From Mucilaginibacter endophyticus (GTDB lineage: Bacteria > Bacteroidota > Bacteroidia > Sphingobacteriales > Sphingobacteriaceae): DNA of 64,000 nt. The position numbers and the translations under genes were made by a program. The stretch spans positions 813,949 through 877,948 of the forward strand of contig NZ_QPCG01000001.1 of assembly GCF_003351025.1 (NCBI RefSeq), written 5' to 3'. The notes beneath the pieces were generated by a model. It was not told where the DNA came from, made no database searches, and saw only the letters and a list, made by a program, of their open reading frames with translations. Below, piece by piece: positions 3,943 through 62,849 of this stretch (the stretch's first letter is position 1; each line of letters starts with the position of its first letter).

Positions 3943-4830
3943 TTACTTCTGCCTGAAACTATCTCCAATAAATGCCAGCGCGTCGGTGATACCGGTGCGC
4001 CAGTAAGTCCAGTTGTGGGCGCCATCGCTGATGCGGAATTCATGAGGCACTTTCTTTTCTGTTAAGGCTATATGTACCAAACTATTTCCTTTGCTCAGGG
4101 CGTCATCATCACCGCAATCTATCCAGTACCTAACGCTTTTAAGCTCATCAGTTGTTTTGCTTTGCACCAAGCCTAATATAGAGTTAGCCTGCCAGGTTGC
4201 ATTAAGGCGTTCTTTCCCTTTAAGATCGGGGCCGAATACTTTACTGTAAGCTTCTTTCCAACGCTCGTCGGTTACTGCCATAAAATCTTCATCTGTACGT
4301 ACCGCCGCGCTTAAAGCGGCCGCGGCCGAGAACATCTCGGGGTGTTTTATGCTGTACTCTAAGGTGCCGAAACCGCCCATAGACAGACCGGCCACAGCAC
4401 GATATTGTTTGGTGTTTTTGATCCGGAACTCATTTTCGATGGCTGGTATAAACTCCTTAAAAAAGAAATCCTCGTAACTCTGTTTTCCGTTATAGGCATT
4501 GATGTACCAGCTTGTTCCTGCATCGGGCATAACAATGATCATAGGGGGGATGGTACCATCGGCAATGGCTTTATCTGCATAGCGGTTAACTTCGCCAAAC
4601 TGAAGCCAGCCGGTATGGTCATCTCCGTAGCCATGCAACAGGTATACCACCGGGTAGGTGCGGTTGGATGTTTCATAATCGGCAGGCAGGTAAACCGCGT
4701 ATTTTACGTTGTGATTTAAAATATCGCTTTTTACGTATTGCTCCTCAATCACTTTACCGGTAGTTTGCGCAAATACATTTACCGAAATAAACAGTAAGCA
4801 AAGCAGCAAAATCCTTTTTATAGTACTCAT
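3943..4830 (-). CDS. Secreted esterase, CE1/esterase D-like (copy 1)
   Basis: 295 residues with a signal peptide (about 1-21, ending VFA). It has an alpha/beta-hydrolase fold of the putative esterase family (esterase D, feruloyl and acetyl esterases). Visible marks are the oxyanion loop LLHGYGDDHTGW (65-75), the nucleophile elbow GLSMGG with Ser150, an acidic stretch DCGDDD near 238-243, and the catalytic His272 in DGAHNWTYW. It is strongly similar along its whole length to the next gene upstream (4898-5782), so the two are a tandem duplication. It is last in a minus-strand group led by the secreted phosphodiesterase. The natural ester substrate is unknown; acylated sugars or polysaccharides are typical for the family. 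Confidence 0.9.
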   Translation of the reverse strand: MSTIKRILLLCLLFISVNVFAQTTGKVIEEQYVKSDILNHNVKYAVYLPADYETSNRTYPVVYLLHGYGDDHTGWLQFGEVNRYADKAIADGTIPPMIIVMPDAGTSWYINAYNGKQSYEDFFFKEFIPAIENEFRIKNTKQYRAVAGLSMGGFGTLEYSIKHPEMFSAAAALSAAVRTDEDFMAVTDERWKEAYSKVFGPDLKGKERLNATWQANSILGLVQSKTTDELKSVRYWIDCGDDDALSKGNSLVHIALTEKKVPHEFRISDGAHNWTYWRTGITDALAFIGDSFRQK

Positions 4831-4897
4831 ATTATAATTTATTCAATCAAATTATCATTTGCATATCTGCACATCTGAAATTTGCACATCCACCTAA

Positions 4898-5782
4898 TTA
4901 TTTTTGTCTGAAGCTATCACCAATAAATGCCAGGGCGTTGATAATGCCTGTGCGCCAATAGGTCCAGGTGTGGTCTCCATCACGCACCCGGAATTCATGC
5001 GGTACATTTTTTTCAGTAAGGGCGATATGCAACAAACAATTGCCTTTGCTCAGGAAATCGTCGTCGCCGCAATCTATCCAGTACCTTACAGCTTTTAGTT
5101 CATCGGTAGTTTTGGTTTGTACCATATTTAAAACCGAATTGTTTAGCCAGGCATTATTAACCCTGTCTTTTCCTTTTAAGCCCCGGCCATAAAGCTGAGC
5201 GAATATTTTATTATAGGTATCGTCGGGAGTGTTGATCAGCTGATCGTCGGGGAATACGGCAGCGCTTAAAGCTGCGCCCGCGGCAAACAGGTCGGGGTGT
5301 TTAAGTGTGTAGATCAGTGTACCATAGCCACCCATAGATAAACCAGCTACGCCACGGTATTTTTTTTCGGCTTTAACACGATAGATCTTTTCGACATGGG
5401 GCATAAACTCCTTGATAAAAAAGTCCTCATATTTTTCCTTGCCATCGTACGAGTTGATGTACCAGCTCGAATCGGCATTAGGCATTACTATGATCATTGG
5501 CGGGATAGTGCCATCGGCAATGGCCTTATCCGCATAGCGGTTAACCTCGCCAAATTGTAGCCAGCCGGTATGGTCATCAGTGTAACCGTGCAACAGGTAA
5601 ACTATCGGGTAAGTGCGATTTGCCGATTCATAATCGGGTGGGAGGTATATCACGTAGTTTACGTTACGCTTTAAAATTTTGCTTTTAAAATTTTGCTCCT
5701 CAAGTACTTTGCCCTGCTGTGCAAACAAACTGAAGCTGCCTATCATCAGCAGACATAAAAAAACGGGTTTAAGTATTTTCAT
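4898..5782 (-). CDS. Secreted esterase, CE1/esterase D-like (copy 2)
   Basis: 294 residues with a signal peptide (about 1-21, ending LFA). It is a paralogue of the adjacent gene: blocks such as HTGWLQFGEVNRYADKAIAD and the C-terminal ALAFIGDSFRQK are identical in both. Catalytic residues are Ser149 in GLSMGG, His271 in DGDHTWTYW and an acid in the DCGDDDFLSKG region. It lies 18 bp after the phosphodiesterase gene and 67 bp before copy 1, so the three are probably one transcript. Differences cluster in the middle of the protein (175-205), which may change substrate preference. Confidence 0.9.
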   Translation of the reverse strand: MKILKPVFLCLLMIGSFSLFAQQGKVLEEQNFKSKILKRNVNYVIYLPPDYESANRTYPIVYLLHGYTDDHTGWLQFGEVNRYADKAIADGTIPPMIIVMPNADSSWYINSYDGKEKYEDFFIKEFMPHVEKIYRVKAEKKYRGVAGLSMGGYGTLIYTLKHPDLFAAGAALSAAVFPDDQLINTPDDTYNKIFAQLYGRGLKGKDRVNNAWLNNSVLNMVQTKTTDELKAVRYWIDCGDDDFLSKGNCLLHIALTEKNVPHEFRVRDGDHTWTYWRTGIINALAFIGDSFRQK

Positions 5783-5800: not shown

Positions 5801-6763
5801 TTAAAAATTGAGCGCTTTACCTTGTTGCGGATATATCAGGTTTAACTGTAATTTATTGGCTTCTTTTAGCTGAACTTTAATTTTACTGATGCTGGTAACT
5901 GGCGGCTTTAAATGCGTTACCACAATATTTAAACCTTTAAGAGCATCAGTACCAGTAAATGAGGCCAGTTTATTCATCTCGTCCATCAGCCATTTTGGGG
6001 TAAGGTGACCAAACAGGGTTTTATCCGGCTGCTCGTTAGGAAAAGATACCTCAATTAATATGGCTTTCAGTTTTTTGTTTTTTACCAATGGAGCTATGGC
6101 TTGCCACAGGTTTTGCATATTACTGCTTTTTTCTATTTCATCCGGACCCGTATCGCCAAGGTAAAGCAGGTAATTATCGTTACTATTTACTAAAAAGGCG
6201 GTACTTGTTAAATTGGAATGGCTAAGCGGGAATGCCTTTACCTTAAGTTCGGTATTTTCGATATCGGTTTCTGCGCCTGGTTCCAATACTTTATAGTGGT
6301 ATTTTTTAAGAGCGGGAGTTTCGCCCTGATCGGCAAAGTTGGCCCAGCTTTTCCAGGTAAAGTAGTGGGTTTTTATAGTCTCAATACAGTCGTTAAGCGC
6401 GTAGATATTTTTAGTACTATCCTCGGGAGAGTTGATGATAAGCCCGGCAATATGGTCAAGATGCGAATGGGAGATGAAATACCCTTTAATGTACTGCCTC
6501 ATTACAGTGCTTGCAGCTACATTAAAGCTTTTATTGGCTACTGCCTTTTCAATGCCGTAATGCAACGTACCGGCATCAAGACAGATATAACTATTGCTAC
6601 CTGCAGGTGCAAGCATATAGGCCGACAGGTTACTTTCATCGATGCCTCCCAATACACCTAAAGGTACAAGCTTAAAAGCCGTGCCTTTTGACGTTTGTGC
6701 TGATACAATTACAGGGAATAGTAAAATATATAAAAGCGGTAGTAATTTACGCTTGAAATTCAT
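5801..6763 (-). CDS. Secreted class II cyclic-nucleotide phosphodiesterase (metallo-beta-lactamase fold)
   Basis: 320 residues with a signal peptide (about 1-22, ending VSA). The zinc-binding motif HSHLDHIAGL (about residues 98-107) is of the class II PDE / metallo-beta-lactamase type. Further family marks are YLGDTGPDE, ILIEVSFPNEQPDKTLFGHL and VVTHLKPP. Class II enzymes hydrolyse 3',5'-cyclic nucleotides, and the signal peptide places this one in the periplasm or outside. It leads a probable operon with two secreted esterases 18 bp downstream. I call the family with confidence; the preference for cAMP over other cyclic nucleotides is inferred. The start is the ATG at 6763, which gives a normal signal peptide. 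Confidence 0.85.
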   Translation of the reverse strand: MNFKRKLLPLLYILLFPVIVSAQTSKGTAFKLVPLGVLGGIDESNLSAYMLAPAGSNSYICLDAGTLHYGIEKAVANKSFNVAASTVMRQYIKGYFISHSHLDHIAGLIINSPEDSTKNIYALNDCIETIKTHYFTWKSWANFADQGETPALKKYHYKVLEPGAETDIENTELKVKAFPLSHSNLTSTAFLVNSNDNYLLYLGDTGPDEIEKSSNMQNLWQAIAPLVKNKKLKAILIEVSFPNEQPDKTLFGHLTPKWLMDEMNKLASFTGTDALKGLNIVVTHLKPPVTSISKIKVQLKEANKLQLNLIYPQQGKALNF

Positions 6764-6867: not shown

Positions 6868-7035
6868 CTACATAACGTATCGCGTTTTAAGACAGCGTTC
6901 ACAAAAAAACTTGCGAATAGGAAGCCAAAACAAAGTTGTTTTTAATAACAGGCCACGTTTCTGCCGGTTTTGTAAGGGTTCGTTACATTTTTTACACTTG
7001 TAAATAACCCGAGGGGTATCTCTTACAATTTCCAT
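6868..7035 (-). CDS. Small CxxC-x27-CxxC zinc-ribbon-like protein (copy A)
   Basis: 55 residues, ATG at 7035 to TAG at 6868. Two CxxC pairs (Cys14/17 and Cys45/48) are separated by exactly 27 residues. The segment between them reads KRGLLLKTTLFWLPIRKFF. Two other small genes in this window (27078-27281 and 27374-27559) share the same spacing and the pattern G/S-x-x-x-K-x-x-LF-x-x-P-x-R/K-R/K. Four cysteines in this layout suggest one structural zinc ion. There is no signal peptide, so it is cytoplasmic. It lies between the phosphodiesterase operon and the AI-2E permease gene, on the same strand as both. The function is unknown; short zinc ribbons often bind nucleic acid or protein partners, but nothing here proves that. 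Confidence 0.8.
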   Translation of the reverse strand: MEIVRDTPRVIYKCKKCNEPLQNRQKRGLLLKTTLFWLPIRKFFCERCLKTRYVM

Positions 7036-7125
7036 TATTAAAGGGGTATCAATAGTTTTACAAACTTAGAAGTTTAGTTTATTTAAACGAAAGTTTACAA
7101 TCCTTGGTTACTCCTTTTAGGAATT

Positions 7126-8220
7126 TTATTCTGTCTTCATAGCCTTTGCCGCCGATTTTTTGTACTCATAATCACCACCTAACAAATATCCCCACGGTTT
7201 AAGTGTTTCAATACGATCAAATATAATTTTGAATATGGCAATAACTGGGATAGATAGGAACATACCCGAAAGCCCCCAGATCATTTCGCCCAGAATGATA
7301 CCGATAAAAGAGATAAGCGCGTTGAGCCTTACTTTTGAACCTACAATGGTTGGCAGCAAAAAGTTAGCGTCTACCGCGTGAATGCCAATAACACTTACAG
7401 CAACTGTTATAGTATTGCTGAGACTGCCAGTAGCGAAAGTAATTACGGTACTTAGCAGCAGGGCCGTAAAGATGCCTATGTAAGGTATAATATTGAAAAG
7501 CCCTACAATGATGCCCAATAATGCCGCGTATTTTATACCTATCATCCAAAAAACAGTAATGGCCACACCTGCAACTATTACCATCTCCAATAACAGGCCT
7601 AAAATGTACTGTCTCAAAATACTTTGAATGTTTTCAACAATGTCCATTACCACGTGCTCGTTTTCATCCCTGAAAACCCATACTATAAACCGGATAAGCA
7701 AACGCCTGTACAGTAATATGAAAAAAGTGAAGATCAGGATGAACACGTAAAACAGCATCAGCGATGAAATTGCCCCGAAAGTTGTACCCAATACGTCGGT
7801 ACCCGATTCCATTAGTTTTTTAGCAGTGTCATCTACATAGGCCATTTGTTTGGCTGCATTAACGTGAAAAGCATGCTGGATCCATTCCTGGAGGTCCTGT
7901 ATGGATTGTTTTACCTGTTTTTGAAGCATTGGCCAGTCATTGGCCATATTGGAGATCTGTGAGCCAACAAGGTACAGGATGCCAGCAATTACGCCAACCA
8001 GCAGTAGTATTGAAACCAACGAGGCCATGCTGCGGGGAAGTCTTAATTTTTTTTCCAGAAACTCGCATACCGGCAATAGCAATATGGCGAATATGAAACC
8101 AAAGATCATAGGATCGAGTAGGTCCTTGCCCACAATAACCAGATAGCCCAGGGCAATGAAGCCGATAAGTACTAAAGCAAGACGTTCGTAAAATGGGGCT
8201 AAGAGTTTTTTTGTTGGCAT
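7126..8220 (-). CDS. AI-2E family (TqsA/PerM-like) membrane transporter
   Basis: 364 residues with about eight hydrophobic helices: an N-terminal set (14-95), a long amphipathic region (100-145) and a C-terminal set (150-340). The conserved family segment IIVGLFNIIPYIGIF is at about 237-251. The family exports or exchanges small solutes; only a few members act on the AI-2 signal, so the substrate is open. The start is the ATG at 8220. It seems to have its own transcript: a 91-bp gap separates it from the zinc-ribbon gene downstream, and the next gene upstream (8494) is divergent. Confidence 0.88.
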   Translation of the reverse strand: MPTKKLLAPFYERLALVLIGFIALGYLVIVGKDLLDPMIFGFIFAILLLPVCEFLEKKLRLPRSMASLVSILLLVGVIAGILYLVGSQISNMANDWPMLQKQVKQSIQDLQEWIQHAFHVNAAKQMAYVDDTAKKLMESGTDVLGTTFGAISSLMLFYVFILIFTFFILLYRRLLIRFIVWVFRDENEHVVMDIVENIQSILRQYILGLLLEMVIVAGVAITVFWMIGIKYAALLGIIVGLFNIIPYIGIFTALLLSTVITFATGSLSNTITVAVSVIGIHAVDANFLLPTIVGSKVRLNALISFIGIILGEMIWGLSGMFLSIPVIAIFKIIFDRIETLKPWGYLLGGDYEYKKSAAKAMKTE

Positions 8221-26400: not shown

Positions 26401-26766
26401 TCAGGCGGCGCTTTTTAATTGTCGGCTTACTGCGCTTAGCAACACGTCAATATCAAAGGGCTTGGCTATAAAGTCATCAGGTGATCCGGCTTGGGTAAGT
26501 ATGCCCGGGTTATGGCTGGCCGAGATTAATATAACGGGTATATTTTTAGTTTCCTGCTGGTTTTTAAGGGTTTTGCAAAGTTCGCGCCCATCTAAATTGC
26601 CAAGCATAATATCAAGCAAAATTAAATCGGGTTCGTGCTGTTTTATACGGTCAAACAAGCTTTTACCTTCAGTCAAGGTCTCAACCTCGTAACCTGAATC
26701 TTCCAGTATATATTTTATTATCTCTAAAATATCTTTATCGTCGTCCACCGCTAATATCCGTCGCAT
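26401..26766 (-). CDS. Single-domain response regulator (orphan receiver)
   Basis: 121 residues from the ATG at 26766 (MRRILAVDDDKDILE). A longer frame exists but its extension is not receiver-like. Receiver marks are the acidic pocket VDDD, the phosphorylation site in DLILLDIMLGN, ISAS with the conserved Ser, and the AKPF Lys. There is no output domain, so it must act by protein contact (CheY/Spo0F style) or feed a phosphorelay. No histidine kinase is adjacent. A second orphan receiver lies at 27855-28211, and two small zinc-ribbon genes lie between them. Confidence 0.9.
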   Translation of the reverse strand: MRRILAVDDDKDILEIIKYILEDSGYEVETLTEGKSLFDRIKQHEPDLILLDIMLGNLDGRELCKTLKNQQETKNIPVILISASHNPGILTQAGSPDDFIAKPFDIDVLLSAVSRQLKSAA

Positions 26767-27077: not shown

Positions 27078-27281
27078 TTAGCTTTTGTTTATGAAAATGT
27101 GTGCTGACTTTTTGCATTTGGCACAAAAATATTTCCTGACTGGTATAAAAAATAACACATTTTTCAAAAACCAACTCCTTTTCATCTGGAAATGATAAGG
27201 TTGTCCGCACTTTGAACAGTAGTATCTTTTTCTCGAGGTAACTTCGCTTTCTTCCACAAACTTTAAATAAGACGGATGCAA
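27078..27281 (-). CDS. Small CxxC-x27-CxxC zinc-ribbon-like protein (copy B)
   Basis: About 67 residues if translation starts at the TTG at 27281; a GTG at 27257 would give 59. No in-frame ATG exists upstream of the conserved part, so the start is uncertain. The core reads YYCSKCG, 27 residues, then CAKC, with the shared KRSWFLKNVLFFIPVRKYF segment between. It is paralogous to the genes at 6868-7035 and 27374-27559. Conservation of four cysteines and spacing supports a real zinc-binding protein in spite of the weak start. It is cytoplasmic; the function is unknown. An overlapping frame of about 100 residues in the same region is not supported by homology. Confidence 0.7.
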   Translation of the reverse strand: MHPSYLKFVEESEVTSRKRYYCSKCGQPYHFQMKRSWFLKNVLFFIPVRKYFCAKCKKSAHIFINKS

Positions 27282-27373: not shown

Positions 27374-27559
27374 CTATCTCAATACATACCGTTTGCGCTG
27401 ACATCTGTAGCACATATATCTTTTTAAAGGAAGGAAAAACAGCAGATTTTTAACAAGAAATCCTCTCGGAACCCGGTTGTCGAGTTCTGACTTACATCTT
27501 GGGCATACCGGAGCCTTTTTTAGTTCCGTTTTTTCTTGTTCATTTATCGATAGTACCAT
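27374..27559 (-). CDS. Small CxxC-x27-CxxC zinc-ribbon-like protein (copy C)
   Basis: 61 residues, ATG at 27559. Cysteines form PVCPRCK and YMCYRCQ, separated by exactly 27 residues, with PRGFLVKNLLFFLPLKRYM between. It is 92 bp upstream of copy B on the same strand, so B and C are probably cotranscribed. The N-terminal 18 residues are charged (NEQEKTELKKAP) and differ from the other copies, which may reflect partner specificity. The function is unknown. Confidence 0.8.
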   Translation of the reverse strand: MVLSINEQEKTELKKAPVCPRCKSELDNRVPRGFLVKNLLFFLPLKRYMCYRCQRKRYVLR

Positions 27560-27854
27560 AATACAATCAGGGGTTATTGTATTTAACTAATTGTTTAATA
27601 TTAACTTATATATCAAAGTTAAGATAATTGTCAATATTTTAATCGGCTTGGTGAAATATTGATAAAAGCTTAAATAATAGTCGGAAATAGAGTCTTATTT
27701 ACAACCGTAGGTTCTTTTTTCTCTTTTTTTTAATTTTTTTATAATTACACCTGAGAAACAGGTTGAGAAGGCAGATAATAAAAGTTAAAAATTATTAACG
27801 CAAAGAAGAGAATAAATCGATCTGATGCCTAAAATTGAGAAATTGCCCCTGGCA

Positions 27855-28211
27855 TTAAAGCAGGTTATTAACTTTCTCGACAAGTTCGGCCAGGTCAAAA
27901 GGTTTATTGATTATGGCGTCACAACCATAGCTAATTAACTCGCTATCGTTACTAACATAAGCCGAAAAGATAATTACCGGAGTATTGCCAAACCGGGGAT
28001 GAACTTTAATGTTACGGCAAATTTCGCCGCCGTTTGTGCCGGCGACCCGATAGTCCAGAATAACCAAATCAGGCTCAAAACTTTCAAGCAAGGGAAGTAC
28101 ATCGGTACTTATAGATGTACTTTTAACTTCAAACTGCTCGTAAGTAAGGGTTTCATGAACAATATCAAGGATGTCCTGATTATCATCCAATACTAAAATA
28201 CGCTTTACCAT
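27855..28211 (-). CDS. Single-domain response regulator (orphan receiver)
   Basis: 118 residues, one receiver domain: acidic pair LDDNQD, phosphorylation site DLVILDYRVAG, FSAY with the conserved Ser, and INKPFD with the conserved Lys. There is no output domain. It is related to, but clearly different from, the receiver at 26401-26766. It is the most upstream gene of the minus-strand set receiver - zinc ribbon C - zinc ribbon B - receiver. A 295-bp gap follows it, so cotranscription is not certain. Confidence 0.9.
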   Translation of the reverse strand: MVKRILVLDDNQDILDIVHETLTYEQFEVKSTSISTDVLPLLESFEPDLVILDYRVAGTNGGEICRNIKVHPRFGNTPVIIFSAYVSNDSELISYGCDAIINKPFDLAELVEKVNNLL

Positions 28212-43857: not shown

Positions 43858-46800
43858 ATGAAGTGTAAAATTTTGATATGTTGCCTTTTTATGCTGTGTT
43901 TATCAGCATCATTGAGCGCGCAGTCAAATTCATTTCAGTTTTCAAGGCTTGATATTAACAGCGGATTATCGCATAACCAGGTTAACTGTGTTTACAAGGA
44001 TGATAAGGGCTTTATGTGGTTTGGCAACTTATCCGGGCTTAATAAGTACGATGGTTACAAGATCAAAACTTTTAAGCATGCCAGCAATGATACCACCACT
44101 TTAGACGACGATTACATTGTTAGTATAAATCCCGGTCCCGAAAATAAATTATGGATCGAAACCCGGACGGGCTTCAATATCTATGATCCTGCTACCGAAA
44201 AATTTACCCGTAACTATAAAGATTTCCTTTACAAAATAAAGCTGTATGACCCCTATATCGCAGCTATTAAGAATGACAGGTTTGGGAACTTCTGGTTTTT
44301 GCACCGCAACAAAAATCAGGGGGTGTACAAGTATGATCCTAAAACAAAACTGCTTACCAATTTGGTGCATAAGGATAATGATGACAAATCCATTTTCACC
44401 AACATGGTCACTGATCTTTCAGTCGATTCGAAAAAAGGTATCTGGCTGGTATCCAACACCGGTGTTTTGGAAAGGCTTGATCCGGTTACTTATAAGGTTA
44501 ATTATCGTAAAGCGCTGGGCGAGCTGCCGCCTGGCTTGAGCTCATCATACAAAATATATATCGACAGGCAGGATGATATCTGGGTGTTTGTGCCGAGCTA
44601 CTCATCAGGGGTGTTTTACCTCAATATGCAAAAAGGCGTATTTAAACATATTGGCAAAGGCCCGGCAGGTACCGGCTTAAATACTGATGTGGTATCTGAT
44701 CTGGCAGAAGATGATCAAAACAGGATGTGGATAGCCACAGACCACGGCGGTATCAACCTGCTTGATAAGCAAAATTTCAAATTAAGCTACCTGCTTAATC
44801 GTGAGGATGATAATAAAACTGTTGGGCAAAACAGCGTTACTTGTGTTTACCGCGATTATTCGGGTATTATGTGGTGCGGTACCTACAAAAGGGGGCTCAG
44901 CTATTATCATCCCAGTATTATCAAATTCGCGGGGTATACCCATCACCTGAGCGATCCAAACAGCCTGCCTTTTAGCGATGTAAATAACTTTGCCGAGGAT
45001 AAGCTGGGCAATATTTGGATAGGTACCAACGGCGGCGGACTTATTTATTGGGACCGTAAAGTAGGCAGCTTTAAACAATATCTGCATAATGCCGGCGATA
45101 ATAATAGTCTCACTAATAATGTGATAGTTTGCCTGTTCATTGATCATGAGCAAAAACTATGGATTGGCACCTATTACGGCGGGCTTGATTGCTACGATGG
45201 CAAAACGTTTAAACACTATAAGCACATCGACGGCGCTACAAACAGCATTTCTGAAAACCGGATCTGCTCCATTATGGAAGATAGCGGCCAAAACCTCTGG
45301 GTAGGTACTCTGTCTGCCGGTTTAAATAAGCTTGACCGGAACCGGCGGGTGGCAGCCAGCTATAAATTTGATGGCGATATCACCAAAAATACCATTCATT
45401 CAAACTATGTAAGTGCCCTACTTGAGGACAGGCGAAAAAATATATGGGTGGTAACGGCCTATGGTGTAGATATGCTAAATCAAAAAACGAATAGGTTTAC
45501 CCATTACCTGCATGATGATAAAGATCCCAATAGCCTCGTAAATAATAATACCAATAATATTTTAGAGGATAGCCGGGGGCTGATATGGATCAGTACCCGT
45601 GAGGGGCTCAATATTTTTGATCCAGGCTCCAAAAAGTTTACGGCGCTTACCAAACAGGACGGCCTGCCTGATAATACTACGATAGATATCAGGGAGGATG
45701 AAAGTCATAATATCTGGGTTAGTACGCCTAATGGATTGTCAAATATTGTGGTTGACAGGAGTAAACCTCAACTGCTATTCCATTTTATAAACTATAACGA
45801 AGCCGACGGGCTACAGGGGCGCGAGTTTGCCGAAAATTCATCGGTGAAAACCCGCGAAGGGGAGCTGATTTTTGGAGGTGGTAACGGCTTTAATATTTTT
45901 AAACCTTCGGCCCTGCATTTTAATAAAAGTAGTTCGGCGTTGTTGTTTACCGATTTTCAACTGTTTGATAAAAGCCTGTCGGTAGGCGAAAAGGTGAACG
46001 GACGGGTAATATTACCCGAATCTATTTCCCAGCTTAAGGAAATAGTGCTTAATTATGATCAGAATGTGTTTTCGATTGAGTTTGCGGCGCTTACGTTCTT
46101 CAATCCTGATAAGGTAAAGCTACAATATGCTATGGAGGGTTTCTATGATGGCTGGATCTCGGTTGATAATAAACTACGTAAGGCTACCTATAACCTTGAG
46201 CCAGGCGATTATACCTTTAAAGTACGGGCAACTAACAATGAGTTCTGGAACGGGAAGGAAATAGCATTGCATATCAGGATCCTGCCGCCGTTCTGGAAAA
46301 CTACCTGGGCTTATGTGCTTTATGCTCTGATTGGTATTGGCGCGTTATTTTATTTCAGACAAAGGGGCATTAAAAAGCTACGGGTGCAGTTTTCTATCGA
46401 AAAGGAACGTGAAGAGGCCCAGCGTATGCATGAGCTCGACCTGATGAAGATCAAATTTTTTACCAATGTAAGCCATGAATTCCGGACTCCACTATCGCTG
46501 ATCATGGCCCCGGTTGATAAGATCCTGAAACAGGTTAGCGATCCTGAAACCCGCAGGCAGCTTACTATGATCACCCGGAATGCCAAACGTTTGTTGAATT
46601 TGGTTAATCAACTGATGGATTTCAGGAAAATGGAATATCAGGAACTCAAACTCTATAAACGGTCAGGAAATATCATCAGCTTTATTAAGGAACTGTCATG
46701 GTCGTTTACCGATATTGCCGATCAAAAGCATATCAGGTTTGTTTTTGATACCGATATTGATGAATTTGTTACCAGTTTTGATCATGATAAAATTGAGCGG

Positions 46801-48009
46801 ATCCTGTTCAATCTGCTTTCAAACGCTTACAAGTTTACGCATGAGGGCGGACAAGTAAGTGTGCTGCTTAGTCTGAAGCAGGGCGATGAAGAGGATGGAT
46901 ATCTGCTGGAGATCAGGGTGGTAGATACAGGTATAGGGATCCCGGCGGCAAAGCGAGAGCGAATCTTTGATCCCTTCTTTCAGCATGATATCCCGGGTTC
47001 TATGTTAAACCAGGGCAGCGGGATAGGGCTTGCCATTACAAAGGAGTTTGTAAAACTACACCAGGGAGAAATTTTTGTAGAGAGTGAGCATAACCAGGGG
47101 AGTTGCTTTACGGTGATACTGCCATTGCAAAAGCTTGATGAAGCATTGTTTACCGATACAGAACATCACCTGCAGCATGACACGGAGTTTATAGTGGATA
47201 GTGATTTGACAAAGCCTGCTCAGCCCAAAGAAACCCGTGATATCAAGAAGCCGACAGTACTGTTGGTAGAGGATAATGAGGACTTCAGGTTTTATATCAA
47301 GGATAACCTGAAAGATGCCTTTAATATTATCGAGGCCGAAAATGGCAAAAAAGGCTGGCAAAAGGCATTGGCCCAGCATCCTAACCTGGTAGTAAGCGAT
47401 ATCAGCATGCCCGAGATGAATGGCATCGACCTATGCCGTAAAATTAAGGGTGATTCGCGTACGTCACATATACCGGTGATATTACTTACCGCCCAAACAG
47501 GAGAAGAACAACAGATTAAAGGACTGGAAACCGGTGCTACCGATTACATGACTAAGCCTTTCAACTTCGAAATCCTTCACTCTAAAATCAAAAATATCCT
47601 CAGTCAGCAGGAAAAAATGCGTAAAACCTATCAAAAACAGGTTGACGTTACGCCAACAGAACTCCAGGTTGATTCGCCGGAGGAGCTGTTTATTAAAAAA
47701 GTGTTGATGTTGATAGATGCCAATATCTCTAACCCTAATTTCTCGGTAGAGGAGTTGAGCAGCGAGATGTTTGTAAGCCGGTATACCCTGTATAAAAAAA
47801 TCCTTCAAATGACCGGTAAAACACCAAATGAACTTGTGCGGTCTATGCGTCTTAAACGTGCTGCGCAGCTGCTTGAAACCGGTCACCTTACCATATCTCA
47901 AATCTGTCATAAAGTAGGCTTTAAAAGCCAGAAATATTTTGTGCGCACCTTTAAAGCTGAGTTTAACAGCATCCCCTCAAAGTATCTGGAGGCCATGAAC
48001 CAGGAGTGA
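43858..48009 (+). CDS. Hybrid two-component system regulator (propeller sensor, kinase, receiver, AraC output)
   Basis: 1383 residues. Signal peptide (about 1-21), two seven-bladed Reg_prop propellers (about 25-700; repeats like NIWIGTNGGGLIYWD, KLWIGTYYGGLDCYDG), a Y_Y_Y domain (about 731-794) and one membrane helix (about 816-834). The cytoplasmic part has a histidine kinase with His873 in NVSHEFRTPLSL, ATPase motifs NLLSNAYKF, DTGIGIP and GSGIGLAI, a receiver with Asp1181 in VVSDISMPEMNG, and an AraC-type DNA-binding domain (about 1278-1378). All parts look intact. Such regulators bind an oligosaccharide in the periplasm and activate adjacent susCD genes. It is followed on the same strand, after 704 bp, by susC. 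Confidence 0.96.
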   Translation: MKCKILICCLFMLCLSASLSAQSNSFQFSRLDINSGLSHNQVNCVYKDDKGFMWFGNLSGLNKYDGYKIKTFKHASNDTTTLDDDYIVSINPGPENKLWIETRTGFNIYDPATEKFTRNYKDFLYKIKLYDPYIAAIKNDRFGNFWFLHRNKNQGVYKYDPKTKLLTNLVHKDNDDKSIFTNMVTDLSVDSKKGIWLVSNTGVLERLDPVTYKVNYRKALGELPPGLSSSYKIYIDRQDDIWVFVPSYSSGVFYLNMQKGVFKHIGKGPAGTGLNTDVVSDLAEDDQNRMWIATDHGGINLLDKQNFKLSYLLNREDDNKTVGQNSVTCVYRDYSGIMWCGTYKRGLSYYHPSIIKFAGYTHHLSDPNSLPFSDVNNFAEDKLGNIWIGTNGGGLIYWDRKVGSFKQYLHNAGDNNSLTNNVIVCLFIDHEQKLWIGTYYGGLDCYDGKTFKHYKHIDGATNSISENRICSIMEDSGQNLWVGTLSAGLNKLDRNRRVAASYKFDGDITKNTIHSNYVSALLEDRRKNIWVVTAYGVDMLNQKTNRFTHYLHDDKDPNSLVNNNTNNILEDSRGLIWISTREGLNIFDPGSKKFTALTKQDGLPDNTTIDIREDESHNIWVSTPNGLSNIVVDRSKPQLLFHFINYNEADGLQGREFAENSSVKTREGELIFGGGNGFNIFKPSALHFNKSSSALLFTDFQLFDKSLSVGEKVNGRVILPESISQLKEIVLNYDQNVFSIEFAALTFFNPDKVKLQYAMEGFYDGWISVDNKLRKATYNLEPGDYTFKVRATNNEFWNGKEIALHIRILPPFWKTTWAYVLYALIGIGALFYFRQRGIKKLRVQFSIEKEREEAQRMHELDLMKIKFFTNVSHEFRTPLSLIMAPVDKILKQVSDPETRRQLTMITRNAKRLLNLVNQLMDFRKMEYQELKLYKRSGNIISFIKELSWSFTDIADQKHIRFVFDTDIDEFVTSFDHDKIERILFNLLSNAYKFTHEGGQVSVLLSLKQGDEEDGYLLEIRVVDTGIGIPAAKRERIFDPFFQHDIPGSMLNQGSGIGLAITKEFVKLHQGEIFVESEHNQGSCFTVILPLQKLDEALFTDTEHHLQHDTEFIVDSDLTKPAQPKETRDIKKPTVLLVEDNEDFRFYIKDNLKDAFNIIEAENGKKGWQKALAQHPNLVVSDISMPEMNGIDLCRKIKGDSRTSHIPVILLTAQTGEEQQIKGLETGATDYMTKPFNFEILHSKIKNILSQQEKMRKTYQKQVDVTPTELQVDSPEELFIKKVLMLIDANISNPNFSVEELSSEMFVSRYTLYKKILQMTGKTPNELVRSMRLKRAAQLLETGHLTISQICHKVGFKSQKYFVRTFKAEFNSIPSKYLEAMNQE

Positions 48010-48713: not shown

Positions 48714-51700
48714 ATGGGAAAAATTCTACGAATAGCCTTGCTGTTCTCCTTTATGTTTGTGTGCATCCGGGGGATGGCACAAAACCAGGGAACGGTGGTG
48801 CAGGGAACGGTTTCAGACGAAAAGGGCGTTACCCTGCCAGGCGTTACAGTTGCTGTTAAAGATAGTAAGACAACTGTTATTACCGATGTTGACGGTAAAT
48901 TTCGCCTAACCTTACCGGCCAATGCCAAAATGCTTGTTTTTACCTTCATTGGTGCCGAAAAGCAGGAAGTGGTCATAGGCAGTAAAACAATATTTACTAT
49001 CACCCTTAAATCAACCACTACAGCGCTTACTGATGTTAACGTAGTAGCCATTGGTTACGGCTCGCAAAGGCGGCAGGACGTTAATGGTGCCATATCATCA
49101 GTAAAAGCTGCAGATATTGCCAATATTCCGCAGCCGAGTATTGATCAGTTATTGCAAGGTAAAGCCGCGGGTTTAACCATTACCCAAAACTCGGGTGCTC
49201 CGGGTAGTTCAACCTCGGTTAGGGTGCGCGGCGTAACGTCTTTAAGTTTATCAAACGAGCCGCTTTATGTAATTGATGGTGTGCCAATTTCGGGCGATGC
49301 TACTAATAAATCAACCAGCGGCCGTTCGCCTCAGTTAACTACCAATAATGATGGGAATGCGGTAAGTCCGCTTGCGCTCATCAATCCAAGCGATATCGAA
49401 TCTATCGATGTGTTGAAAGATGCATCGGCGACAGCGATTTACGGTAGCCGGGCATCCAACGGTGTAATCATCATTACTACCAAACGCGGTAAAAATGGTA
49501 GCGCCCGTGTTAATTACGATGGTTATGTAGGTTACCAGGAGCAGGGCAAATTTTTAAAAATGATGAACCTGCAGCAGTACGCAACGCTGCAAAACGCCAT
49601 GGCCGATGTAATTGGTACGCAAAAACGTGGTGAATTTGCCGATCCGAGTTTGCTGGGTAACGGTACCAATTGGCAGCACGAAATTTTCAGGAACGCGCCT
49701 ATGCAAAGCCACCAGGTTTCTATTTCAGGTGGTAAAGAAGGTACAGATTATTACATCTCGGGTGGTTATTTGAGGCAATTGGGTACCATTTTGGGTAACG
49801 ACTTTACGCGTTACACTATCCGCACCAACATTAACTCGCAGGTAAAGGACTGGCTGAAGGTTGGTACAACTATTTCTGGCAGCCGCACCAATCAAAATGT
49901 TTCAATCGGCGATAACAATGGGGTTATCTATGGGGCTTTGTTAAGCGCCCCGGATCAGTCCGTACGTAACGCTGACGGATCTTTTTCTGGTCCTCTGCCA
50001 CAGGCTAATCAACAAGGCGGACAAATCAATCCCGTAGCCCAGGCCTTGGATATTTACAATAACCTGGTACGCAGTAATTTTAATGGCGGTGTTTATGCCG
50101 AAATGAAATTTACCCGCGACCTGTCATTAAGAAGCCAGGTAAACGGCGATTTCAACTGGTCAAACGCCAAGATCTTCCAGCCATCGTATACCTACGGGCC
50201 GCTGTTTGTTAACCCAACCGCAAAACTTAACGAGTATATTGCCAATACCGTTTACTGGGGTTGGCAGGAGTATTTAAACTACAACCACACTTTTGGTAAA
50301 AAGCATAATGTTGTTGGCTTACTGGGTTATGAGGTTAATGAATCAACCTGGGGCGGTGTTGATGCCGGTGTTCAGAACTTTTTAGGCAACGATCTTAAAA
50401 CGCTGAACCTTGGTGATGCCAAAACCGCTACTAACGGCGAATATAAAGATGGTCAGGCACTCGAATCGCAGTTTGCGCGGGCTATTTATACATACAATAA
50501 CAGGTATAGTATTACTGCTACCATCCGTCGTGATAAATCATCTAAGTTTGCCGAGGGACACCAGGTGGGTTATTTCCCGTCGTTCGCGGTATCATGGCGA
50601 TTGTCTGAAGAGCCTTTCTTTTCGGGGATAAAAACTTTTGCCGATAACGTGAAGCTAAGGGTAGGCTATGGTCAGGTTGGTAACCAGGCGGTGCCAAATT
50701 ACCTGTATGGTTCGGCCTTAAACTCGTTAACTACCGGTTTAGGTACAGGTTTTACTATTGATAAGGTTGCAAATCCCAACCTAACCTGGGAAACCGCAAT
50801 TCAAACCGATATTGGTATCGATTTCTCTCTATTCGGCAGGATTGATGCCAGCGTTGATTACTTCGACAAAACATCAAAAAACTTCCTGTTCCAGGCTTCG
50901 CTACCGGCGTTTTTGTTGGGCCAGAGTGCCGAATACTCAGGCACAGGCGTAATTGCGCCGCCGTATGTTAATGGCGGTAAACTGTATAACCGCGGTGTTG
51001 AATTCACCATCAATTCAAGGAATATCGCTACAACCAATTTCAGGTGGAACACAACGCTGATCTTCTCGAAATATAAAAACAAGGTGGTGTCGCTTGCTAA
51101 TAGCGTGCCGTTCATTAACAGGAGTGTTGGTGTAAGCTTCCTTTCATTGCCGGTTACCCGTACAGTAGCAGGCGGTCCGGTGGGCGAGTTTTATGGTTAT
51201 GAAGTTCAGGGCATTTTCAAAACAGCCGATCAGTTACGTAACGCGCCAATTCAGTTTGGTCGCCCGGTGGCTAATAATTCGGCAGGTACCTGGCTTGGAG
51301 ATGTTCAATATAAAGACCTGAACCACGATGGTAAAATTGACGAGGCCGATCAAACCAGTTTAGGCAGCGGTAACCCTAAGTTTACTTATGGTATCACCAA
51401 CTCGTTCAGTTATAAATCGTTCGATTTGTCTTTCTTCCTTAACGGATCATACGGTGCTAAGATCTTTAATGTGCTTAACTACTCTATCAGCGGGTTATCA
51501 GGCTTGTACCAAAATCAACTGGCTTCAGTAGCTAATTTCTGGACACCTCAAAACGCTAACTCAAATATCCCGGCACCACGCGGTGGTGATAATCCTAACC
51601 TGAAAAATTCTGATAGGTTTATCGAAAGCGGATCATTCCTGCGGGTGCAGAATGTAAGTCTTGGCTATAATCTGCCACTATCATGGATCAGGCATATCAA

Positions 51701-51875
51701 GCTTAACCGTCTTAAAGTTTATGTGAGTGGTCAAAACCTGTATGTGTTTACCCCATACAAAGGCCTCGACCCGGAAATTGGATCAATAAACCAGGACGCG
51801 TTTTTGAATGGTGTTGATATCGGCAGGTATCCTTCGCCACGTACCATCACATTTGGACTTAACGCTGAATTTTAA
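48714..51875 (+). CDS. susC: SusC/RagA family TonB-linked outer-membrane transporter
   Basis: 1053 residues with a signal peptide (about 1-22). A carboxypeptidase-regulatory-like beta-sandwich follows (about 27-110: GTVSDEKGVTLPGVTVAVKD), then a TonB-box-like VNVVAIGYGSQ, the plug (about 120-225) with the family signature VRVRGVTSLSLSNEPLYVID, and a 22-strand barrel ending in NAEF. SusC-type proteins import oligosaccharides across the outer membrane together with SusD. There is no extra N-terminal STN domain. The gene starts the structural part of the locus and is followed 18 bp later by susD. In context the cargo should be beta-mannan oligosaccharides. Confidence 0.96.
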   Translation: MGKILRIALLFSFMFVCIRGMAQNQGTVVQGTVSDEKGVTLPGVTVAVKDSKTTVITDVDGKFRLTLPANAKMLVFTFIGAEKQEVVIGSKTIFTITLKSTTTALTDVNVVAIGYGSQRRQDVNGAISSVKAADIANIPQPSIDQLLQGKAAGLTITQNSGAPGSSTSVRVRGVTSLSLSNEPLYVIDGVPISGDATNKSTSGRSPQLTTNNDGNAVSPLALINPSDIESIDVLKDASATAIYGSRASNGVIIITTKRGKNGSARVNYDGYVGYQEQGKFLKMMNLQQYATLQNAMADVIGTQKRGEFADPSLLGNGTNWQHEIFRNAPMQSHQVSISGGKEGTDYYISGGYLRQLGTILGNDFTRYTIRTNINSQVKDWLKVGTTISGSRTNQNVSIGDNNGVIYGALLSAPDQSVRNADGSFSGPLPQANQQGGQINPVAQALDIYNNLVRSNFNGGVYAEMKFTRDLSLRSQVNGDFNWSNAKIFQPSYTYGPLFVNPTAKLNEYIANTVYWGWQEYLNYNHTFGKKHNVVGLLGYEVNESTWGGVDAGVQNFLGNDLKTLNLGDAKTATNGEYKDGQALESQFARAIYTYNNRYSITATIRRDKSSKFAEGHQVGYFPSFAVSWRLSEEPFFSGIKTFADNVKLRVGYGQVGNQAVPNYLYGSALNSLTTGLGTGFTIDKVANPNLTWETAIQTDIGIDFSLFGRIDASVDYFDKTSKNFLFQASLPAFLLGQSAEYSGTGVIAPPYVNGGKLYNRGVEFTINSRNIATTNFRWNTTLIFSKYKNKVVSLANSVPFINRSVGVSFLSLPVTRTVAGGPVGEFYGYEVQGIFKTADQLRNAPIQFGRPVANNSAGTWLGDVQYKDLNHDGKIDEADQTSLGSGNPKFTYGITNSFSYKSFDLSFFLNGSYGAKIFNVLNYSISGLSGLYQNQLASVANFWTPQNANSNIPAPRGGDNPNLKNSDRFIESGSFLRVQNVSLGYNLPLSWIRHIKLNRLKVYVSGQNLYVFTPYKGLDPEIGSINQDAFLNGVDIGRYPSPRTITFGLNAEF

Positions 51876-51893
51876 TTTTTGGATGAACCTGAT

Positions 51894-53558
51894 ATGAAAA
51901 GATATATAAAATATTTATTAGGGCTAACGGTTGTAACAGGCGTTACTACAAGTAGCTGTAAAAAGGACTTCTTTAATCGTCCGCCGCAAAGTGCCATTAC
52001 ACTGGATAACTACTATAAAACCAATGACCAGGTGGTTGCCAGCACTAATGACCTGTATAGCGCGGTTTGGTTTGGCTGGTGCGGTAAAGCGGGCTGGTCA
52101 ATAACCGAGCTGATGGGCGGCAATGGCCGTACCTACTCGTCGGACATTGTGAATTTTGAAAATTTCTCGGTTACCGATGCCAACTTTGAGTTGGGTGGCG
52201 CGTGGAACTCGTTGTACATTGTAGTAGCCCAGGCCAATGCATTGATCAATAACCTGCCCGTAAAAGTAGGTGCAGGCGTTGATAAGGCAGTGATAAATAA
52301 TGCCCTCGGTGAAGCGCATTTGTTCCGTGCCCTGGCTTACTTCCATCTGGTACGTACCTGGGGGCCGGTACCTATCATCGAAAACAGTTTGGATTATGTA
52401 TCAAACTACCAGATCAATACCAACCCAATCCCCGATGTGTATAAGTTTATTGTAAACGATTTGAAGTTTGCTGAGGATAACCTGACCAAGATGGGGCCGC
52501 GCAGTGGTAAGTCATCGGGTCGTGTTTCAAGCGGGTCTGCATCGGCATTGCTTGCCAAAGTTTACCTGTATATGCAGGATTATCAAAATTCGCTTGCCGA
52601 AGCCAATAAAGTGATCAGCAGCGGCGAGTTTAAGCTATACGGTGTTGATGTAGCCGGTAAAACATTTGCCGATTTGTACTTAACCGCGAATAACAATAAT
52701 GAAGAGTCAATTATTCAGCTGCAATGGTCGGCAACCGGTGGGTATGGAAAGGGTAATCCGCAACAGGCCTCATTCGCGTACAATTCAATCATAACCGGTA
52801 CAGGCGATGGTTACGGCGTATTGGCGCCAACTTTCGATCTGCAGGATATGTATGAATCAGGCGATTTGCGCAGAAAAGCTACCATTATGCTCCCTGGCGA
52901 TCATTATCCCGAAATAAACCAGGCTGCGGGAGGTTACACCTTGCCCGATAACGCGAACTCGCAAGGAACGCATGCCCAGGTTAAAAAATATGTAGTTGGT
53001 ACCCCTGCAGATAACGGAGGTTTGGGCGCGGCGCAATCTGCCGCGAACAATACCTACATGATGCGTTACGCCGAAGTTTTCCTGATCAAGGCCGAAGCCA
53101 TTATGGCCGGTGCTAAAACCAGCAGTGATCCGGAAGCTTTGGCTGCCATCAACAAAATCAGGAACCGGGCTGGTTTAGGCAATCTTACTACTATTAAACG
53201 CGGGTATTATTTGCCAAACCCGGCTCTTAAATTGGCTGGTGCCCCGGCTAATACGCCAAAAGAGCTTTATCGTGATGATATCCTGGACGAAAGAAGGCGT
53301 GAGTTTGCTTTTGAAAATGATTTTTGGTTTGATCTGGGTCGACTGGATGGGTATAACGTAACCTCGCACCCGATAGCTATCAGCATAATCAAAAATCAGG
53401 ATAGGGGGACCTCTGATAACAGCACACCACCGCAGCGTTATGGCAACGAATATAATTCGACTGTTACGGATGCTAATTTCCGGTTGGCATACCCGGCTAC
53501 CGAAGTAGCATCAAACCCTAAGTTAAAAGACGCACCGGTACCTTATGTATTTAAATAA
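51894..53558 (+). CDS. susD: SusD/RagB family surface lipoprotein
   Basis: 554 residues from the ATG at 51894; a TTG 15 nt upstream is unlikely. The lipoprotein signal ends TSSCKKDFF, and the charged residues after the Cys fit surface export in Bacteroidota. The N-terminal TPR-like part includes LFRALAYFHLVRTWGPVPII, and the C-terminal part includes IRNRAGLGNL and DDILDERRREFAFENDFWFD, all SusD hallmarks. It forms the lid of the SusC transporter and binds glycan. Its gene is 18 bp after susC and 7 bp before the next lipoprotein gene. Confidence 0.95.
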   Translation: MKRYIKYLLGLTVVTGVTTSSCKKDFFNRPPQSAITLDNYYKTNDQVVASTNDLYSAVWFGWCGKAGWSITELMGGNGRTYSSDIVNFENFSVTDANFELGGAWNSLYIVVAQANALINNLPVKVGAGVDKAVINNALGEAHLFRALAYFHLVRTWGPVPIIENSLDYVSNYQINTNPIPDVYKFIVNDLKFAEDNLTKMGPRSGKSSGRVSSGSASALLAKVYLYMQDYQNSLAEANKVISSGEFKLYGVDVAGKTFADLYLTANNNNEESIIQLQWSATGGYGKGNPQQASFAYNSIITGTGDGYGVLAPTFDLQDMYESGDLRRKATIMLPGDHYPEINQAAGGYTLPDNANSQGTHAQVKKYVVGTPADNGGLGAAQSAANNTYMMRYAEVFLIKAEAIMAGAKTSSDPEALAAINKIRNRAGLGNLTTIKRGYYLPNPALKLAGAPANTPKELYRDDILDERRREFAFENDFWFDLGRLDGYNVTSHPIAISIIKNQDRGTSDNSTPPQRYGNEYNSTVTDANFRLAYPATEVASNPKLKDAPVPYVFK

Positions 53559-53565
53559 TCAAACC

Positions 53566-54726
53566 ATGAAAAAGATATTTCAACAATCCAAAACATATTA
53601 CTGGATGCTGTCGGTTTTGATGGTATTTGGTATGGCCTCGTGCCGTAAATATAACGATAGGGGTACCGGTGGCACCGGCGCACCTAAAATTACCAGGGTA
53701 AGGTATATCAGCAAAACAGATACCATTAAAAATGTGTCACACCCGGTAAACCTTGATTCGGCCAATGTTTATGATGATATCAAACTGGTTAAGTTTGATT
53801 CGACGGTAACGCAGGGGCGTTTAAATACCCAATATGCCATTATTGGCGAAAACCTGTTGAACACCACGCATGTATACTTTAACGGCACCGAGGTTTATTT
53901 TAACCCTGCCCTGGTAAGCGATAAAACCATTATTGTTACCATAGGCTCAAATGTGCCATTCGGGCCAAGCCAGTCAAACAAGCTTACAGTTGTAACCACG
54001 CAAGGTAAGGTTGATTATGATTTTAGCATAGCGCAGCCACCTCCGGTAATTACCACATTTGCGCCACTTGCAGCCGGCGCGGGCGATATTGTGACTATAA
54101 CCGGCAGCGTATTTAATGATGTTATCAGCGTTAAGTTTGATGATACCCCGGCCGAAATTGTAGGCACACCAACAGCTACCGAAATAAAGGTTAAGGTGCC
54201 TGCCGGTATTGTACAGGCTTATGTATATGTAACAACAGCGGGTGGTACAACCAAGTCTGCGGCTTCATTCGGCTTTAAGTATTTGATTTATGGCGATGAC
54301 CTTACGCTGTACTGGGGTGGTAATGGCGGCGGTTATGACGGATACGGCAGTACCCGCGACTATGCCAGCACAGCCCATGTAAAACGCGGTACACATGCTA
54401 TTGCAGTTAATGTTGATAACGGTTATGGTGCATTGCAGTTAGGTTACGGCGGTGCTACTTTAAACGTTGCGGCATCGGGCTTAACCTCAATAAAAGTATC
54501 AATTTATGGTGGCGCCAACTTCAAAACCGGCGATAGGGTGCAGTTGGTAGTAAATGGTGGTTATGATAAGGCGGTGCCGCTTACTATTGTACCGGGCGCT
54601 TACACGGATTTTACCATCCCGTTAAGCAGTTTGGGCAACCCTGCAACCATATCCGAAATTACTTTCCAAACATTAGGCGTTGCGGCACCAGCAACCTTCT
54701 ATGTTGATGATCTTGGGTTTATTTAA
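53566..54726 (+). CDS. Surface glycan-binding lipoprotein with IPT/TIG domains (SusE-position)
   Basis: 386 residues from the ATG at 53566. The lipoprotein signal ends GMASCRKYND. Two IPT/TIG-like immunoglobulin domains follow: about 85-165 (YAIIGENLLNTTHVYFNGTE) and 166-245 (PPVITTFAPLAAGAGDIVTI then ITGSVFNDVISVKFDD). The C-terminal part (about 255-386) is a separate Gly/Tyr-rich beta domain, probably a carbohydrate-binding module (YWGGNGGGYDGYGSTRDYAS). Its position right after susD matches surface glycan-binding proteins of other loci. Confidence 0.88.
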   Translation: MKKIFQQSKTYYWMLSVLMVFGMASCRKYNDRGTGGTGAPKITRVRYISKTDTIKNVSHPVNLDSANVYDDIKLVKFDSTVTQGRLNTQYAIIGENLLNTTHVYFNGTEVYFNPALVSDKTIIVTIGSNVPFGPSQSNKLTVVTTQGKVDYDFSIAQPPPVITTFAPLAAGAGDIVTITGSVFNDVISVKFDDTPAEIVGTPTATEIKVKVPAGIVQAYVYVTTAGGTTKSAASFGFKYLIYGDDLTLYWGGNGGGYDGYGSTRDYASTAHVKRGTHAIAVNVDNGYGALQLGYGGATLNVAASGLTSIKVSIYGGANFKTGDRVQLVVNGGYDKAVPLTIVPGAYTDFTIPLSSLGNPATISEITFQTLGVAAPATFYVDDLGFI

Positions 54727-54785
54727 ATTCTATAGGGTCGCCGGCGTGCAAGCGACGGCGACCCTTACTTTCAAAATTTAACAGT

Positions 54786-55331
54786 ATGAAAGTTTATAGT
54801 TCAATAGTCTGTATGTTACTACTGCTGCTGGCGGCAGGCAAAGTGCATGCTCAAAAGAACCTGATTACCAACGGTGGTTTTGAAGAGGAAATGTATGGTT
54901 GGAATGATGGCGGTGTTAAACTTACTCCCTGGGATGCGAAAACAGGTAAAAACAGTTGTGCTATCATCGCTACAAATGCTGCAAACTGGTTGGGGGTTGA
55001 TCAGCAGGTAGTTATTCCTAAAAAGGCCGGTAAGCTGGAAGTAAGCGCATGGCTTAAAACCATCAATGTAATGAAAGGCAAAGATGATTGGAACGGGGCG
55101 GTTTTTAGTGTCGAGTTTTTGGATAAGGCAGATAAAAAGGTTGGCGAGGGTATAAATATAGTTACACTAACCGGCGACCATGCCTGGGAGCTGGCTTCGA
55201 AAGAGGTTTTAATCCCTGCCGGAGCTGTTCGGTTTAAATTGCTTTTGGTGATGGGGTATGCTACGGGTACATTTTTGATTGATGATGTTGCCGTGAAGGC
55301 GATAATGAGCGATCCGGTAACAAAAAATTAA
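54786..55331 (+). CDS. Small secreted CBM-like protein
   Basis: 181 residues with a signal peptide (about 1-22, ending VHA). The mature part is one beta-sandwich of the CBM4/9/22-like type: NLITNGGFEEEMYGWN at its start and GTFLIDDVAVKAI at its end are typical of the family. No catalytic domain is attached. It lies 59 bp after the TIG lipoprotein. It lacks a lipobox, so it is probably periplasmic or secreted. It may hand glycan to the transporter or enzymes. The calcium site and sugar-binding face cannot be judged from sequence alone. Confidence 0.78.
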   Translation: MKVYSSIVCMLLLLLAAGKVHAQKNLITNGGFEEEMYGWNDGGVKLTPWDAKTGKNSCAIIATNAANWLGVDQQVVIPKKAGKLEVSAWLKTINVMKGKDDWNGAVFSVEFLDKADKKVGEGINIVTLTGDHAWELASKEVLIPAGAVRFKLLLVMGYATGTFLIDDVAVKAIMSDPVTKN

Positions 55332-55416
55332 TATTTAATTGTGCGATTGATATTTTGTAAGTATAAAAGTGTTAAATTAGTATCATCAATTAGCAAACTT
55401 ATTTTAGTGGGATTTT

Positions 55417-56295
55417 ATGATGACAAGTAATGTAATGCGAGAGATAACTCCGCTAACTCCAAGTGATTGTTTTACTATTTTTTCGAGGGTAAAAAAGAAA
55501 TTCGACTTTCCGCTTCATTATCATGACGAGTATGAGCTTAACCTAATTATCAATGCCAAGGGCGCCAAAAGGGTAGTGGGTGGTCATATTGAGGTGATTG
55601 AAGAGGTGGAGCTGGCGCTGATTGGTCCTAATTTATATCATGCCTGGTTTACGCACCAATGCCAGAGCGAGGATATAACTGAGGTTACCATTCAGTTTCA
55701 TAAAGATCTGTTTGATGAAAAATTTCTGAAACGCAATCAGTTGAGCTTTGTTAAAAGCATGCTGGAGCGCTCACAGCGGGGGATTTCTTTTTCGGCGGAG
55801 ACTATCTACGCGCTTAAGGACAGGATAACACAGTTGGATAAAAAAACAGGGTTCGACTCAGTGTTGGAGCTATTGTCTATCCTGCATGATCTGTCTATCT
55901 CTCGTAACATGAAAATGCTGTCGGATCCAAGCTTTACCAATGAAAAGTTTTATTACAATAGTCGTCGTATCGAGAAGGTATTTGAGCATATGAACCTCAA
56001 CTACAATAAGCAAATAACACTTGCTGAGGTAGCTAAAATTGCGAATATGCCCGAAGCTTCATTTAGCAGGTTTATAAAAAAACGCACCGGTAAAACCTTT
56101 ATTGATAGTTTAAACGAGATTAGGCTTGGTCACGCCTCCAGGATGCTTATTGATTCAACTACTACTGTGGCCGAAATAGCTTACAAATGTGGTTTTAATA
56201 ATATCTCAAATTTCAACAGGATCTTTAAGCGCAAAAAGATGTGTATTCCCAAGGAGTTCAGGGAAACCTATACCGGAAACCGCGTATTTATTTAA
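55417..56295 (+). CDS. AraC family transcriptional regulator
   Basis: 292 residues. An N-terminal cupin-like sensing domain (about 25-110, with HYHDEYELNLIINAKG) and a C-terminal double helix-turn-helix (about 190-288: ITLAEVAKIANMPEASFSRF and TTVAEIAYKCGFNNISNFNR). The start is the ATG at 55417 or the one at 55420, since both precede the same domain. It sits between the surface-binding genes and the symporter-phosphorylase-epimerase group, so it may control the latter. An intracellular sugar such as mannobiose or mannosyl-glucose is a plausible ligand, as inference. Confidence 0.92.
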   Translation: MMTSNVMREITPLTPSDCFTIFSRVKKKFDFPLHYHDEYELNLIINAKGAKRVVGGHIEVIEEVELALIGPNLYHAWFTHQCQSEDITEVTIQFHKDLFDEKFLKRNQLSFVKSMLERSQRGISFSAETIYALKDRITQLDKKTGFDSVLELLSILHDLSISRNMKMLSDPSFTNEKFYYNSRRIEKVFEHMNLNYNKQITLAEVAKIANMPEASFSRFIKKRTGKTFIDSLNEIRLGHASRMLIDSTTTVAEIAYKCGFNNISNFNRIFKRKKMCIPKEFRETYTGNRVFI

Positions 56296-56423
56296 CTGGT
56301 ATTTATTTGACCGGGTAGTTAGTTAAAAATATATCATCCGGTCGATAAAGTTAAATATAAGGTTAAAAAAGTATTATAAAATTGCTGATAATAAATTCAT
56401 TTTTGGGTAAGGCCAATTAAGGT

Positions 56424-56547: not shown

Positions 56548-56550
56548 AAG

Positions 56551-58383: not shown

Positions 58384-58394
58384 TAAAAAATTAT

Positions 58395-62780: not shown

Positions 62781-62849
62781 TGCGGGCAGAAGTTTAGCCG
62801 GAAAGCTTTAATTTCAAATGCTGAATCATAAGCATCAATAAGAAGATAA

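Follow-up and report, generated by a model that had tools for sequence, protein, structure and literature searches.

Do three very small, cysteine-rich reading frames in one stretch of Mucilaginibacter endophyticus DNA represent genuine genes of a single family, and if so, what might their products do? By "the window" we mean the whole stretch analyzed, which is 64,000 nucleotides long. As the first-pass annotation had reported, it contains three open reading frames with the arrangement CxxC-x27-CxxC. All are on the minus strand, and they consist of 55, 59, and 61 codons. Alignment confirmed that exactly 27 residues separate the CxxC pairs in copies A, B, and C (the invariant cysteines being C14, C17, C45, and C48), and the pattern R-(G/S)-x3-K-x2-LF-x2-P-x-(R/K)2-(F/Y) described earlier is found in all three. 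When the window was simulated as a first-order Markov sequence, 0.03 such reading frames were expected per 64 kb, as opposed to the three observed. The coordinates previously assigned to C and A stand, but the start of B had been placed wrongly at 27281 instead of at a GTG at 27257.

6868 to 7035, minus strand: copy C, a putative 55-residue zinc-ribbon microprotein (open reading frame; orthologues with the same two neighbors in ten loci; dN/dS 0.01 to 0.39)
27374 to 27559, minus strand: copy A, a putative 61-residue zinc-ribbon microprotein (open reading frame; conserved cassette position; dN/dS 0.06 against genome G017)
27078 to 27257, minus strand: copy B, a putative 59-residue zinc-ribbon microprotein with a GTG start (upstream stop in G013 and G017; dN/dS 0.03 against G017)

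In the sister genomes G013 and G017, an in-frame stop codon occurs just upstream of a conserved GTG that matches window position 27257. Thus, the B gene spans 27078-27257 and encodes 59 amino acids. No in-frame ATG precedes the first cysteine in 21 of 27 B-type members. Across the genus, the usual start of B-type genes was GTG or TTG.

Unsaturated pairwise comparisons within the three orthologous sets yielded dN/dS values mostly between 0.01 and 0.27, with one pair at 0.39; a close pair for C (the window versus G013) gave 0.01. The pooled pN/pS was 0.24 to 0.28, with saturated pairs making up most of that comparison. The low dN/dS argues that the three frames are protein coding and constrained; judged from their sequences, A, B, and C are real genes under purifying selection.

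Copy C was found between the same two genes in ten loci.

7126 to 8220, minus strand: AI-2E family (perM-like) transporter, the conserved upstream neighbor of C (PF01594)
5801 to 6763, minus strand: metallo-beta-lactamase protein resembling class-II cAMP phosphodiesterases, the conserved downstream neighbor of C (PF02112)

Farther downstream of C, positions 3943-5782 hold two similar esterase-like paralogues in tandem.

We evaluated how common such genes are by a profile search, from which all genome copy counts were taken. The suggestion that three paralogues in the window pointed to a larger family in the genome proved correct, as the 7.5-Mb genome, which is close to M. kameinonensis, contains eight copies. 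Sixty of 61 Mucilaginibacter genomes carried at least one copy, with a maximum of 16 in G025, so that an uncatalogued single family has multiplied to this extent within one bacterial genus. In a sample of the taxonomic family, copies were present in 84 of 201 genomes, representing 11 of 25 genera, and occurrence was sparse at the class and phylum levels; the hits outside Mucilaginibacter include Parapedobacter, Pararcticibacter, Sphingobacterium, Taibaiella, and Pedobacter. Homologues with the same spacing do exist in Bacteroidota genomes: among the 104 members read, the CxxC pairs were 27 residues apart in 90, 26 in 7, and 28 in 7. The spacing is therefore near-fixed, and the paralogous family is real, larger than the window's three copies, and easily missed, as had been remarked of the first copy; most copies are shorter than the genes that are readily called. 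A search of the Mucilaginibacter literature produced no lead on the family, which others could annotate with a profile built from these sequences. Unannotated copies are also carried by Spirosoma plasmids, for which the gene table is incomplete. Two of these are L257 (Spirosoma linguale pSLIN05, 560-706) and L258 (4001-4120), and one of their plasmids is small (8.7 kb) and mobilizable.

The position profile approximates C-P-K-C-x6-R-x2-R-G-x2-V-K-x2-L-F-W-L-P-x-K-R-Y-x-C-x2-C-x4-Y. All four cysteines were invariant in 95 of 95 aligned members, the core had a mean net charge of +9.5 (minimum, +5), and the chain ended a median of about 9 residues past the fourth cysteine. Distant Bacteroidota relatives (L163, L164, L167-L175, and L184) have an N-terminal membrane helix followed by a similar ribbon.

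Known families did not account for these proteins. No Pfam or NCBIfam model reached its cut-off for A, B, or C, and a search of PHROGs gave only weak matches. The TIGR04104 model scored 15.5 bits against B, its curated cut-off being 45 bits, and did not match A or C. TIGR04104 (CxxC-x20-CxxC putative zinc fingers) and the FmdB-type CxxC_CxxC_SSSS family likewise comprise small proteins with two CxxC pairs, but their models gave weak matches, and these in only a minority of the ribbon family. The zinc ribbon model of IS1595 transposases matched 25 of 95 members (best E value, 1e-4); for the window protein it was below cut-off, and we therefore do not derive the family from a transposase. A mobile or viral origin was also rejected: no phage matched, no relative turned up on a viral contig, and the plasmid records were limited to three from Spirosoma. 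Searching solved structures by sequence returned partial hits only, to C2H2 fingers and IleRS.

Small zinc-finger proteins are reportedly less common in bacteria than in archaea (PMC2253796). The archaeal CPxCG proteins, such as Brz and HVO_0758, are the closest precedent of this type; they resemble the window proteins in size, in having two cysteine pairs 7 to 40 residues apart, and in being present in many, often unannotated, copies per genome. They are defined as having fewer than 100 amino acids and two Cys/His patterns 7 to 40 residues apart, at least one of them CPxCG, CPxCx, or CxxCG (PMC2253796). At 55, 59, and 61 amino acids and with 27 residues between the pairs, all three window copies agree in size and distance. 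A (CPRCK) and B (CSKCG) also contain a qualifying pattern, C (CKKCN and CERCL) does not, and across the family 71 of 104 members do and 33 do not. Thus, the family is a variant of that kind rather than part of it. In contrast to the archaeal set, its members are all homologous, keep a nearly constant spacing of 27 residues, and share a conserved R-x2-R..K..LFWLP-x-KRY core. Brz controls neighboring transcription and depends on the Cys/His residues of its zinc finger (PMC2253796), deletion of HVO_0758 changes swarming and biofilm formation, and many small archaeal C(P)XCG proteins bind zinc, whereas several do not (PMC11241148).

AlphaFold2, run with the family alignment, predicted a strand-helix-strand-strand arrangement for A (mean pLDDT, 73.8) and C (77.6), consistent at moderate confidence with a small zinc-ribbon-like beta fold. 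The best structural neighbors were the zinc ribbons of Rpb9, NrdR, and HVO_0758, with Z-scores of 2.7 to 3.5, values low enough to indicate only a common ribbon-like arrangement. The HVO_0758 ribbon could be aligned at 2.4 Å over 40 residues (Z, 3.0). The NrdR and Rpb9 ribbons share the predicted beta-ribbon geometry (Z, about 3.0 to 3.5) but no demonstrated sequence relationship, and the window proteins have no ATP-cone or second domain; the cone that follows the ribbon in NrdR has no room here, since the chains end soon past the fourth cysteine. The four invariant cysteines and the predicted fold make a zinc-binding ribbon likely.

Copies A and B belong to a co-directional cassette with the order REC1-A-B-REC2, which is kept in most of the genus genomes compared while its flanks are rearranged.

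27855 to 28211, minus strand: REC1, a single-domain response-regulator receiver, the conserved upstream neighbor of A (PF00072, E value 7e-20)
26401 to 26766, minus strand: REC2, a single-domain receiver, the conserved downstream neighbor of B (PF00072, E value 3e-25)

Partial forms of the cassette (A only, B only, or REC2 only) exist as well. A and B occur without a receiver in G015 (L080), G011 keeps both receivers at the site with no family member detected, and in G031 and G052, REC2 or REC1 plus REC2 is kept without ribbons alongside. The receivers are thus independent of the ribbons, and the genomes that keep receivers without ribbons weaken the idea of an obligatory partnership between A/B and REC1/REC2. 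At other ribbon loci, the adjoining gene encodes a hybrid kinase of about 950 residues (L094, L110, L114, L125, L133, and L138), a 121-residue receiver (L124, L145, and L147), a 334-residue REC protein (L112), or a 713-residue kinase (L153). Receiver or hybrid-kinase neighbors occur in about 5 of 29 locus types compared with about 1% expected by our estimate (135 REC domains in 7.5 Mb); about 24 of 29 have no adjoining receiver.

In seven Mucilaginibacter genomes (L321-L327), an RRM RNA-binding gene takes the place of the ribbons in the REC1/REC2 slot, upstream of REC2 in G031, G045, and G034, with the same orthologue downstream of REC1 in G052, G037, G019, and G040. These orthologues are 60 to 100% identical to the G031 query. 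The stretches examined around them, which for five of the seven genomes reached only some 1.5 kb to either side, held no ribbon genes; conversely, no ribbon-bearing slot locus held an RRM gene, and the other RRM paralogues examined sit away from the REC1/REC2 site. Three of the RRM-slot genomes form one clade by REC2 grouping and the rest fall in no resolved group, so the exchanges may number no more than one or two. The slot proteins are bacterial glycine-rich RRM (RRM_1) proteins, whose fold is unrelated to the ribbons and which are possible functional counterparts only.

The leaders of the ribbon genes contain several recurrent elements.

27614 to 27621, minus strand: TAACTTTG, a Bacteroidota -7 promoter-like box (TAnnTTTG) of A, conserved in most A orthologues
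27561 to 27582, minus strand: palindrome ATACAATAACCCCTGATTGTAT, separated by one base from the start codon of A and also present ahead of paralogues
7061 to 7068, minus strand: TAAGTTTG, the promoter-like box of C, from leader comparison
7043 to 7046, minus strand: CCCC leader tract of C, from leader comparison

The box of A lies 55 to 62 nt before the ATG and follows TAnnTTTG, which we take to be the Bacteroidota -7 promoter consensus. ATACAA/TTGTAT palindromes with the same arms precede the nonorthologous copies F, L087, L117, and L122, with TACA and TGTA 10 to 14 nt apart. The whole genome contains nine palindrome sites, two of them before family genes; a genome-wide role was rejected, as most of the nine are not before a start codon. 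CCCC within 30 nt of the start was found in 35% of members versus 5% of other genes, with orthologues counted singly and thus not independent; the tracts concentrate at -17 to -3 and occur in about 6 of 29 locus types, including C and D, which have no palindrome. The slot RRM genes have no CCCC leader element, which ties the element to the ribbons and not to the site. A stable RNA hairpin was rejected because single-strand folding energies of the leaders were no better than those of shuffles. Identical ATACCCCTATTAAAATA repeats are scattered in G000 at C1:754260, C2:20520, C2:61737, C3:104702, C10:5353, and C28:384711.

What, then, might these proteins do? Our tentative preference, held at a little short of an even chance, is for lineage-expanded C4 zinc-ribbon microproteins whose ligand is nucleic acid, most likely RNA, and which act as small local regulators with their own promoters. 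Each would be a stand-alone ribbon of about 55 to 75 residues, folded around a single zinc, with a strongly basic surface that contacts the nucleic acid. RNA contact is possible given the mean charge of +9.5 and the RRM gene in the same slot, and the exchange with the RRM gene, together with where the leader element lies, somewhat favors RNA among nucleic acids. Every copy, made from its own promoter, would act as a local regulator; the element that several leaders share near the start codon may serve autoregulation or common control; and A and B, which lie between the output-less REC1 and REC2, may serve that signaling pathway without being obligatory to it. The invariant cysteines, predicted fold, ribbon-like nearest structures, basic core, and purifying selection are consistent with this proposal, as are the genus-wide cassette, the RRM swap in seven genomes, the CCCC enrichment, and Brz as an archaeal analogue that regulates transcription (PMC2253796). 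Against it stand the weak structural Z-scores, an RRM swap possibly confined to one or two lineages, leader folding no better than shuffles, the roughly 24 of 29 locus types with no adjoining receiver, the persistence of both receivers in G011 with no detected family member, and the several archaeal C(P)XCG proteins that do not bind zinc (PMC11241148).

The cassette could instead mean that A and B are adaptors, phosphorylated REC1 or REC2 binding the basic ribbon and so reaching a target, the ribbon being a detached output domain. The conserved co-directional order and the excess of receivers and kinases at other locus types suit this idea, to which we give a modest chance in view of G011, G015, and the majority of locus types, which have no receiver. 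DNA-binding regulators of themselves and adjacent genes, with the palindrome as operator, are unlikely: Brz is a precedent, the ribbon geometry is NrdR-like, and the palindrome is near the start in the A, F, L117, L122, and L087 types, but the variable TACA-TGTA distance is unusual for DNA operators, the element is downstream of the promoter-like box, and C and D have CCCC alone. Quite unlikely, in our estimate, is that the ribbon pair is an RNA-binding effector module of the two-receiver signaling cassette, having exchanged places with the RRM protein, and that the family then spread with leader-based autoregulation. If so, two unrelated RNA-binding folds would serve the same signal pathway; the receiver cassette and RRM exchange offer a direct, testable link to signaling and RNA control. 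The membrane contact proposed in the first-pass annotation is not supported for these copies, as the hydrophobic LFWLP lies on and beside a predicted short helix and strand, and membrane helices occur in some distant relatives only. That these are membrane-associated proteins whose LFWLP stretch touches the bilayer or a membrane partner is accordingly very improbable, even with the helix ahead of a similar ribbon in those relatives and the transporter gene adjoining C: the window copies have no membrane helix, and their short hydrophobic stretch has conserved K/R to its sides and maps to the core of the predicted fold. The segment is more simply read as the predicted core of the ribbon.

Elsewhere in the window, a hybrid sensor kinase gene (43858-48009) lies upstream of SusC/SusD-like and glycosidase-like genes, and the region at 48714-63980 looks, from its reading frames, like a polysaccharide (perhaps mannan) utilization locus.
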